From Mesorhizobium sp. (GTDB lineage: Bacteria > Pseudomonadota > Alphaproteobacteria > Rhizobiales > Rhizobiaceae), in NCBI GenBank assembly GCA_004020545.1, contig SAQE01000060.1:1-41079 (forward strand): a DNA stretch of 41,079 bases. Direction: 5' to 3'. The first letter of the stretch is position 1; each line of letters begins with the position of its first letter. Positions 3,188 to 27,821 of the stretch are shown here, in pieces. The position numbers and the translations under genes were made by a program. The notes under the pieces were generated by a model. It was not told where the DNA came from. It did no database searches and worked only from the letters and a program-made list of their open reading frames with translations.

Positions 3188-3356
3188 CACCCCCCTCTGT
3201 CCTGCCGGACATCTCCCCCGCAAGGGGGGAGATCGGCAGCTTTTTCGACGGCGCCCTCTTTGCCGAGGAGATGCAACTTCGGAGATTGGCGAAAGCGGAG
3301 GTGACTTCCAATCTCCCCCCTTGCGGGGGAGATGTCCGGCAGGACAGAGGGGGGTG
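3188..3356. repeat. Palindromic repeat element, copy 1, with 46-bp perfect inverted arms
   Basis: The arms 3188-3233 and 3311-3356 are exact reverse complements over 46 bases and enclose a 77-base centre. Each arm contains a GTCCTGCCGGAC dyad and a CTCCCCC/GGGGGAG hairpin. The element lies in the 279-base gap between the binding-protein gene and the first permease gene. In mRNA it could fold into a very stable hairpin and so reduce readthrough to the permease genes or protect the upstream message. The arms match those of the copy at 5458-5616. It resembles rhizobial intergenic mosaic elements; that naming is from memory, not a search. Confidence 0.9.
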
Positions 3357-4390: not shown

Positions 4391-5217
4391 GGCAGTTACG
4401 CCGCTTCTTCCGCACGCCGGAAACGGTTGCCGGTGCGGCAATCCTCGTCTTGCTCGTCGCCATGGCGCTGGCCGCGCCTCTGCTTTTCCCGCGCGATCCG
4501 CAAGCGATCGCCGGCCCGGCATTGCTGCCGCCGTTCCAGGACTGGTCGCTGCCGCTCGGCACCGACCGGCTCGGCCGCGACGTGCTGGCCGAACTTTTCC
4601 ACGGCGCCCGCACTTCGCTGGCCGTCGGCTTGGCGGCGGCCGCCGCGGCGCTGTTGATCGGCGCGGCGGTCGGCACGCTGGCTGGCTTTGCCGGAGGCGT
4701 CATCGACGAAGTGCTGATGCGTGTCACCGACGCCTTCCAGACCGTGCCGAGCTTTCTTCTCGCGCTGGCTTTCGTCAGCATCGTCGGCCCCTCGCTGGGT
4801 GTCGTGGTCGCAGCCATCGCGCTTGGCGCCTGGACCGGCCCGGCGCGCGTTGCCCGCGCCGAGGTGCTGTCGATCTGCGAGCGCGACTACGTGGCGGGTG
4901 CCCGCGTCATCGGTATGCACCCACTTGAGATCGCCTTTCGCGAAGTCCTGCCCAACGCCTTGCCGCCGGTGCTGGCGCTGTCGTCGGTGATCGTGGCGGC
5001 GGCAATTCTCACCGAGGCGGCGCTTTCCTTCCTCGGTCTCGGCGATCCCAACCGCGTCACCTGGGGCGACATGATCGCCGAGGGCCGGGCCGTGTTGCGC
5101 ACCGCGCCGTATCTGTCGATCTTTCCCGGCATCGCGCTGGTGCTGACCGTACTCGGCGTCTACCTCGCTGGCGAGGGTGTGGTCGAAAGCACCGCGGTGC
5201 GCAGGAGCCTGTCGTGA
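4387..5217 (+). CDS. ABC importer permease, DppC type
   Basis: The second transmembrane subunit of the peptide-type importer, 276 residues. It has an N-terminal cytoplasmic stretch (RFFRTPETVAGAAIL), one membrane helix, and the DppC hallmark LPLGTDRLGRDVLAELFHGAR near residues 55-75. The binding-protein-dependent permease domain follows, with the coupling motif ARVARAEVLSICERDYVAGAR near 155-175 and ILTEAALSFLGLGDPNRVTWG near 210-230. The start ATG overlaps the upstream stop (ATGA) and its own stop overlaps the next gene's GTG (GTGA). No irregularity was seen. It pairs with the preceding DppB-type protein. Confidence 0.92.
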   Translation: MRQLRRFFRTPETVAGAAILVLLVAMALAAPLLFPRDPQAIAGPALLPPFQDWSLPLGTDRLGRDVLAELFHGARTSLAVGLAAAAAALLIGAAVGTLAGFAGGVIDEVLMRVTDAFQTVPSFLLALAFVSIVGPSLGVVVAAIALGAWTGPARVARAEVLSICERDYVAGARVIGMHPLEIAFREVLPNALPPVLALSSVIVAAAILTEAALSFLGLGDPNRVTWGDMIAEGRAVLRTAPYLSIFPGIALVLTVLGVYLAGEGVVESTAVRRSLS

Positions 5218-6221
5218 CGGCGCTGCTCTCGATCCACGACCTGACGGTGCGCTACCGGCGCGACGGCATCGAAGTGGCGGCGCTGAAGGGTGTGAGTCTG
5301 GATATTGAAGCCGGTGAGCGCTTGGCGATCATCGGCGAAAGCGGTTCGGGCAAAAGCACGCTGGCGCTGGCGGTGGCGGGGTTGCTGGCGGGCTCGGCTG
5401 AGATCGGCGGAACGATCGGATGGTCAGCAAGCCAATTTCAAACGCCTCGTTCCGTCACACCCCCCTCTGTCCTGCCGGACATCTCCCCCGCAAGGGGGGA
5501 GATTGCTCCCTCATCTCCGGCTCTGCAAATCGCCAAGGTCGAAGAGTGGGAGCCGGCGTTGATGCTGCCAATCTCCCCCCTTGCGGGGGAGATGTCCGGC
5601 AGGACAGAGGGGGGTGCGAAGGATCGCCAACGTCTCTCGCTAACTAACGCTTCGATAGGCGGCCGCGACATCGGCTTCGTCTTCCAGGACCCTGCCTCCA
5701 GCCTCGACCCCGTGATGCCGATCGGCAAGCAGATCGCCGAAGTCGTCCGCACCCATGTCGGCTTTGCCTGGCCTGAAGCCTATGCCAAAGCCAAAACCCT
5801 GCTGGAGCGCGTCCGCCTGCCCGACCCGGAATCCGCCTTGCGCGCCTACCCGCACCAGCTTTCAGGTGGCCAGAAGCAGCGCGTTGCGATCGCGGCGGCA
5901 ATCGCGGCCGGACCGAAACTGCTCATCGCCGATGAAGCAACCAGCGCGCTCGACACCATCGTGCAGGCCGAGATCGTCGCTCTGATCCGCCGGCTCGTCG
6001 CCGAGGACGGCATGACGCTGCTCTTCATCAGCCACGACATTGCGCTCGCCGCCACGCTTGCCGAGCGCATCGTGGTGCTCCGCCACGGCGAACTGGTCGA
6101 GTCGGGCGAGACCCGTCAGATCATCGCAGCGCCGCGCCACGCCTACACCCGCGCCTTGCTTGATGCCCATCTCAGCCTCGACGCCGAGCCGCTGCTTGAC
6201 CGGCAGGGCGCTTCGGCATGA
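5214..6221 (+). CDS. ABC importer ATPase, DppD type, carrying a translated palindromic repeat
   Basis: A 335-residue ATPase energising the peptide-type importer. Visible motifs: Walker A GESGSGKST (41-49), Q-loop FQDP (Q158), signature LSGGQ (216-220), Walker B LLIADE (236-241), H-loop H274. The spacing from the Walker A lysine to the Q-loop is 111 residues, against 45 in the sister ATPase encoded next door. The excess is explained by a 159-bp repeat element (5458-5616), exactly 53 codons, read through as about residues 82-134 ([13 protein letters not shown] ... [14 protein letters not shown]). It sits in the beta-subdomain before the Q-loop. All catalytic motifs remain in frame, so the protein may still work with a disordered loop. 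The start is GTG at 5214, overlapping the upstream stop. Function is likely but not certain. Confidence 0.88.
   Translation: MTALLSIHDLTVRYRRDGIEVAALKGVSLDIEAGERLAIIGESGSGKSTLALAVAGLLAGSAEIGGTIGWSASQFQTPRSVTPPSVLPDISPARGEIAPSSPALQIAKVEEWEPALMLPISPLAGEMSGRTEGGAKDRQRLSLTNASIGGRDIGFVFQDPASSLDPVMPIGKQIAEVVRTHVGFAWPEAYAKAKTLLERVRLPDPESALRAYPHQLSGGQKQRVAIAAAIAAGPKLLIADEATSALDTIVQAEIVALIRRLVAEDGMTLLFISHDIALAATLAERIVVLRHGELVESGETRQIIAAPRHAYTRALLDAHLSLDAEPLLDRQGASA
5458..5616. repeat. Palindromic repeat element, copy 2, inside a coding sequence
   Basis: The arms 5458-5503 and 5571-5616 are perfect 46-base reverse complements and match the arms of copy 1 base for base. The 67-base centre differs from that of copy 1. 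The element is 159 bases long, a multiple of three, and contains no stop in the host gene's frame, so the ATPase gene is not broken. As RNA it would place a strong hairpin inside the coding region. Confidence 0.92.
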
Positions 6222-27417: not shown

Positions 27418-27442
27418 ATTCGGGCGCTGGCGATCCCTCGCG

Positions 27443-27594
27443 CCCCCCTCTGGCCTGCCGGCCATCTCCCCCACTTGGGGGGAGATCAGCAGGTCCGGCG
27501 CCCCGCCTCCTCTGCGACGTCGGCAATTGGCGAAATCGCCGATGACGGCCAATCTCCCCCTTGTGGGGGAGATGTCCGGCAGGACAGAGGGGGG
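27443..27594. repeat. Palindromic repeat element, copy 3 (diverged)
   Basis: The arms 27443-27486 and 27552-27594 have the same organisation as copies 1 and 2 (CTGTCC/CTGGCC...GGGGGAGAT) but are not identical to each other or to those copies. The left arm has TGGCCTGCCGGCC where the right arm complement has TGTCCTGCCGGAC. It is intergenic, so it is free to drift, unlike the coding copy. Confidence 0.85.
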
Positions 27595-27821
27595 CGCTGT
27601 CCCGCCGACATCTCAAAGGGTTCTGCCGCAGCCAGCAAACGACCGCTCGAATGCCCCCTTGGCTTTCCCTCGTTCGCCAGCTATGTTGCGATCGCAGATC
27701 GCACAATATGGACCCGAAATGCCGCCCGATATCCCAGCTAGTGAATTGAAAAAATGAAGGAACCTCGCCTGGATCCCTCCAGGACGGTCTTCAGGAACTC
27801 ATAAGCTGCAAAATGGATATC

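Follow-up and report, generated by a model that had tools for sequence, protein, structure and literature searches.

A 159-bp palindromic repeat at positions 5458-5616 of the window (the whole 41,079-nucleotide stretch of Mesorhizobium sp. DNA analysed here) is read in frame inside a gene for a peptide-importer ATPase, and the best reading, which is also the simplest account and to which we give a probability of about 0.8, is that it is a tolerated, translated palindrome changed by its own mechanics, with selection keeping its frame and its openness. Sequence comparison shows a single site in the gene, a lock on the frame, pairing between the arms, near-identical loops in opposite orientations, deletions that are in frame, and recurrence of the element in CobN and CobG. 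We infer that the inversions and deletions arise by template switching at the hairpin or by recombination between the arms, and the lengthened ATPase is presumably made and active.

The host gene (5214-6221, plus strand, GTG start) encodes 335 residues of a Dpp/Opp-type (peptide/nickel importer) ATPase; the NCBIfam peptide/nickel ATPase models match it, ABC_tran (PF00005) matches it in two stretches, and the solved folds closest to its structural model are chains of E. coli DppBCDF and OppBCDF. An earlier note, made from the letters of the window, had placed the palindrome in frame within this gene with every catalytic motif preserved, and both statements were borne out by the open reading frame and its translation. 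On the plus strand, Walker A (GESGSGKS, 5334-5357) falls in invariant alignment columns, the Q-loop glutamine Q158 lies at 5685-5687, and the stretch from the LSGGQ signature to Walker B (5859-5936) is intact, its columns being invariant or nearly so. From the Walker A lysine, K47, to Q158 there are indeed 111 residues, as that note had counted, against 45 in the sister ATPase. The AlphaFold model gives pLDDT below 50 for insert residues 73-147 and about 90 for the ATPase core, and the insert is predicted to form, outside the folded core, a disordered segment that separates Walker A from the Q-loop. A defence-system reading of the ATPase was rejected, since the PADLOC matches cover only parts of ATPase models and lie outside any system context.

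The left arm of the element (5458-5505, plus strand), perfect over 48 bp, and the right arm (5569-5616, plus strand), its reverse complement, each encode a 15-residue peptide and enclose a loop (5506-5568) that is found in both orientations among orthologues and is here minus when set against the consensus of the copies in this genome. The inverted repeat extends outward imperfectly to 58-nt arms that are 95% complementary (5448-5626), and RNA of this extended stretch folds at -147.5 kcal/mol, against -74.1 for shuffled sequences (z -17.4). By sequence, the left arm contains a small hairpin of its own, ATCTCCCCC-GCAA-GGGGGGAGAT (5481-5503), which recurs inverted within the right arm (5571-5593). 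A 169-bp intergenic copy (3188-3356) separates the binding-protein gene from the first permease gene and serves as a matched non-coding control. The two copies had been described as identical, with perfect arms of 46 bp; that arm length holds for the intergenic copy, and the same 46-bp arms are common to both, but the loops differ, as do the lengths and the extent of perfect pairing. A third copy in the window, 156 bp long (27441-27596), is spanned by a stop-free frame without a Pfam match. For the first permease gene, the longest frame begins with an ATG in the right arm of the intergenic copy (3332-3356), and the true start is probably further downstream. On the minus strand, an antisense frame of 104 residues (5438-5752) crosses the ATPase element and spells the same arm peptides; it probably gives rise to spurious annotations.

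Of the 119 genomes sampled in the genus, a protein search found matches in 109, and named records supplied 80 loci; the neighbouring permease was kept in all 185 loci with both anchors. Rows without the N-terminal anchor (L072, L184, L185, L190) or with N gaps (L068, L181, L182, L203) were left out, and L197, scored as full under loose pairing, was counted as partial. The gaps of L181, L182 and L203 sit exactly in the insert, so the palindrome troubles short-read assembly. If the orthologues had all carried some unrelated loop of this size, the case for a mobile element would have gone; instead, the distance from Walker A to the Q-loop is 123-132 bp at empty sites and 324-378 bp where a full copy is present, the empty syntenic orthologues belonging to Aminobacter, Brucella, Rhizobium, Tianweitania and some Mesorhizobium. 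Among the 106 anchored genomes, of 109 matched, that make up the genus sample there were 55 full copies, 24 partial copies, 24 empty sites and 3 N gaps, with 54 of the 55 full and all 24 partial copies in frame. Over all loci, 57 of the 61 distinct full copies are exactly 159 bp long and 59 are in frame, as are all 25 distinct partial deletions, which have 18 different lengths.

The matched control drew on the same 49 loci (the window and L031-L078), in which the intergenic copy stands 2 kb upstream of the one in the gene. Its lengths are 157, 158, 160, 166 and 169 bp, and 0 of 27 were multiples of three, against 33 of 34 for the ATPase copy (Fisher 1.8e-16). Since this intergenic neighbour has no multiple-of-three lengths, selection on the frame is specific to the copy in the gene. 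The earlier note had taken divisibility by three for a property of the element, and this did not survive: only 12 of the 47 paired copies of this genome have such a length, and the commonest, in 21 of them, is 158 bp. A multiple-of-three length marks the copies inside genes, not the repeat family.

This family is abundant. A 16-mer from the arm, with up to two mismatches, has 187 matches in the 6.99-Mb genome, against 2 for a reversed-pattern control, so that chance does not account for the repeat, and copy counts are lower bounds, given that first-look scoring covered 40 of 150, 40 of 209 or 7 candidates per genome. The repeat reaches beyond the genus, into at least 19 of 109 sampled genera of the taxonomic family (E up to 1e-25). 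A stop-free frame with at least 35 residues on both sides spans 28 of the 47 copies of this genome; in a Pfam scan of 20 of the 35 distinct spanning frames, only CobN and CobG bracket the element, and an alpha/beta hydrolase (L143) was rejected as a host because its domain lies wholly downstream. Four of the 47 copies stand in conserved genes: one in the ATPase, two in CobN, whose contig in this genome ends inside the gene, and one in CobG.

The prediction that the repeat would recur in other proteins was confirmed, in CobN, CobG and a molybdopterin oxidoreductase. At the first CobN site the element is present in 43 of 45 anchored loci from 37 genomes, always 159 bp long and in frame, although these loci were picked by similarity to carriers and the fraction is not a prevalence; the codon phase is that of the ATPase copy, and 20 loops are minus and 17 plus. 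With the insert, CobN reaches 1591 bits where the cut-off is 1235, and one TGA inside the match was flagged in 6 rows. Two CobN genes that lack the element, L263 and L279, carry different repeat-like peptides there, and this site may accept several repeat families. At the second CobN site the lengths are 160, 178, 181 and 184 bp, each leaving a remainder of 1, and in 45 of 45 the gap as a whole is divisible by three. CobG proteins with the element score 424.1 and 312.7 bits, and 445.6 in this genome, against a cut-off of 234.8; the 11 copies at the CobG site have lengths of 159, 177 or 186 bp, each divisible by three, and in L243 no stop-free frame crosses the element on the strand of the gene. 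In genome G016, where 42 copies were read and 10 spanning frames scanned, there was one new host, a molybdopterin oxidoreductase (L312:1011-4199), in which a 158-bp copy lies in frame between the two main domains and the codon phase of its left arm is a different one; this protein matches models of nitrate and formate reductase below their cut-offs. A copy of 159 bp also stands at another common locus (L242, L246, L248), next to a membrane-protein frame that in L242 matches no NCBIfam model.

The history of the ATPase insertion was traced on a quick tree of the flanking sequence, with 137 rows and many open forks, from which L043 was left out for its short flank. Every full copy falls within one 102-row clade (SH-aLRT 92; 98 for an inner clade of 101 rows), and so does every partial copy among the 26 rows so labelled except L109, a Leifsonia sequence that is not an orthologue and was dropped from later counts. 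The carrier clade also includes 17 empty rows, and because of these a single origin is not proved. Repeated independent insertions at hot spots, in place of one old insertion in each gene, would accommodate both the empty alleles within the clade, which have an outgroup-like WPGLG motif, and the other repeat-like sequences that L263 and L279 hold at the CobN site. We nevertheless think this unlikely, given that the copies inside genes, in both orientations, share the site, the codon phase, a length of 159 bp and, close to the end of the loop, an additional base.

Loop orientation at the ATPase locus, 39 plus and 21 minus, has no phylogenetic signal on this tree, with 20 changes against 14-20 in 100 shuffles. 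When minus loops are reverse-complemented, they intermingle with the plus ones: the mean distance is 0.293 within plus, 0.289 within minus and 0.306 between them, and loops of this locus stand at a mean distance of 0.37 from the other copies of this genome. Loops that are nearly the same occur in opposite orientations: in CobN, the pairs G116/G020 and G030/G060 differ by 6% and 7%, and in the ATPase L167 and L172 differ by 10%. Since such near-identical loops stand opposite one another at the same site within a gene, the centre of the element inverts between its arms without breaking the frame. It is rather improbable that the opposite orientations are assembly errors promoted by the inverted arms. 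Most of the genomes are drafts, three have the N gaps in the insert described above, and the closest opposite CobN pairs involve drafts, but both orientations also occur among near-complete genomes, in the ATPase (9 plus, 5 minus, with 4 changes on the tree) as well as in CobN (4 plus, 7 minus).

Loop pairs that differ by at most 15% are evenly divided in CobN (7 same, 7 opposite) and mostly of one orientation in the ATPase (35 same, 3 opposite). At 10% or less the ATPase has 15 same and 0 opposite, and for this reason inversion at that locus is slower than allele exchange. Alleles do appear to move between species: loops are about 30% apart even where the flanks of the species diverge by only 4-6%, while among the matches listed there are ATPase-locus loops that are nearly alike in species whose flanks diverge by 8-17%, and this combination indicates exchange. 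Because loop divergence outpaces simple inheritance, replacement of loops from elsewhere in the genome is also possible; among the matches listed in a strict search, CobN copies from other species and from the same genome were 91-93% identical to an ATPase copy. Conversion between ATPase and CobN loops within a genome found no support, the distance being 0.335 within and 0.346 between genomes, with 195 of 2000 permutations as low. Arm position 32 agrees within genomes in 15 of 23 cases (permutation p 0.0056, relatedness not controlled). The arms of a copy remain matched to each other: 2468 of 2622 cells pair, against a shuffle maximum of 2431; at the pair 32/126, in 57 copies, the combinations include T-A (22), A-T (20) and G-C (12); and mismatches average 2.70 within one copy against 3.75 to the arms of other copies.

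The host ATPase is under purifying selection and the inserted residues hardly so. For the core, dN/dS is 0.17 over all carrier pairs, 0.11 over close pairs and 0.087 among empty rows, with no stop codon in the core in 56 rows; within the insert it is 0.82 for the loop and 0.65-0.74 for the arms. Stops are absent from the loop in the coding frame (0 of 47 copies), present in 5 of 47 in the frame that is read after inversion and in 21-30 of 47 in the other four; in CobN the corresponding counts are 0, 1 and 17-29 of 37. Additional selection for an open inverted frame was considered but is not indicated, as sense-codon composition already accounts for the openness (42 of 47 copies, where a codon shuffle expects 44.4). 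It is quite improbable, in the light of these values, that the insert has been domesticated as a peptide and kept for useful amino acids. Its arm residues are well conserved in three genes and the insertion persists over much of the genus, but the arms are equally conserved in non-coding copies, the dN/dS of the insert is far from that of the core, the carrier clade holds both the 25 in-frame partial losses and empty alleles, and the loop is read from either strand and predicted to be disordered.

The earlier note had left a choice between tolerance and a silent loss of importer activity. Tolerance is favoured: the frame is kept by 59 of 61 full copies and by 25 of 25 partial ones, and loss shows in just two full copies, which are frameshifted, stand in near-complete genomes and are possibly natural losses of the ATPase. 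These are L070, of M. ciceri WSM1271, and L177, of genome G011. That the enzyme no longer works and the insertion belongs to a gene in decay is very improbable; beyond those two copies, core dN/dS is slightly higher in carriers than in empty rows, but it is far below 1, and the core is free of stops with its motifs intact. It is also very improbable that the insert is removed from the RNA or bypassed by ribosomes to give a protein without it: bypass or processing signals can be very stable hairpins and the hairpin of this mRNA is exceptionally stable, but the length lock and the stop-free frame would then be needless, and no Rfam family reaches its gathering score in the window.

Returning to the tolerated palindrome, we propose that an ancestor of a single Mesorhizobium clade acquired, within its ATPase gene, a copy of this high-copy repeat. 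The site would be a surface loop that lies between Walker A and the Q-loop, and the copy would have had the 159-bp form, in which both strands share an open codon phase. The ATPase gene would have stayed functional, so that selection now holds only the frame and the freedom from stops. Inverted arms of 46-48 bp would let the loop invert in place with no change in length, and hence in frame; they would also keep both arms alike and cause deletions, of which only those in frame would survive. Alleles, empty ones included, would cross species by recombination. The 159-bp form being strand-symmetric, inversion of its loop would give a second version of the protein, and were inversion to occur within populations it might act as a reversible switch in the loop sequences of the ATPase and CobN, a suggestion that we consider doubtful.

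The likeness to the protein-coding palindromic elements of Rickettsia (RPE), suggested in the earlier note, is supported by the places in which the repeat lies. RPE and their Wolbachia counterparts are described as palindromic repeats of about 100-150 bp, intergenic or in frame in conserved genes, at exposed positions and in the same place in orthologues (PMC2229807, PMC3767692, PMC10969869); the insert in rickettsial gmk is translated and the enzyme is still active, according to PMC2229807. The Mesorhizobium element likewise occurs between genes and in frame in conserved genes, at the same site in orthologues and with the site empty elsewhere. It differs in that its host is free-living and GC-rich, few copies are in genes, the loop inverts and the length in genes is locked at 159 bp. 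The two are unrelated as far as is known and are likened by description, not by sequence.

Among other repeats, REPIN or REP-BIME with their RAYT transposase resemble the element in having two inverted units, each with a small hairpin, around a loop, and in their high copy number, but the Mesorhizobium units are longer and have copies within genes. No match to Y1_Tnp (PF01797) was found in this genome (G000; 2 candidates scored, with matches in 5 of 14 control genomes), and a RAYT-driven REPIN was ruled out here on that ground; empty and filled alleles differ beyond the repeat, with no target-site duplication noticed. RIME, the Sm repeats and the A/B/C motifs, compared by description, are also high-copy palindromic repeats of rhizobia but are described as intergenic in PMC2245857 and PMC2573895. 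The Correia repeat enclosed elements of Neisseria are reported to invert between inverted ends and are discussed in relation to promoters in PMC10969869; inversion is common to both, but that of the Mesorhizobium element takes place inside an open reading frame. In Methanocaldococcus jannaschii, an archaeon, genes likewise contain palindromic repeats that have coding potential (as cited in PMC2996958). A search of the open-access literature, with subscription papers mostly outside it, found no report of coding palindromes in Mesorhizobium.

By this analogy, the element appears to work as the protein-coding palindromes of Rickettsia do, although its genus is free-living and its loop inverts in frame. 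Such palindromes have so far been discussed for intracellular Rickettsiales and an archaeon. The many sequenced Mesorhizobium species form a natural series in which one codon position is empty, filled, inverted, partly deleted or frameshifted. This series makes it testable how selfish repeats enter proteins and what a protein tolerates, and whether the mechanics of a palindrome or selection on the protein is the author of part of a protein sequence.
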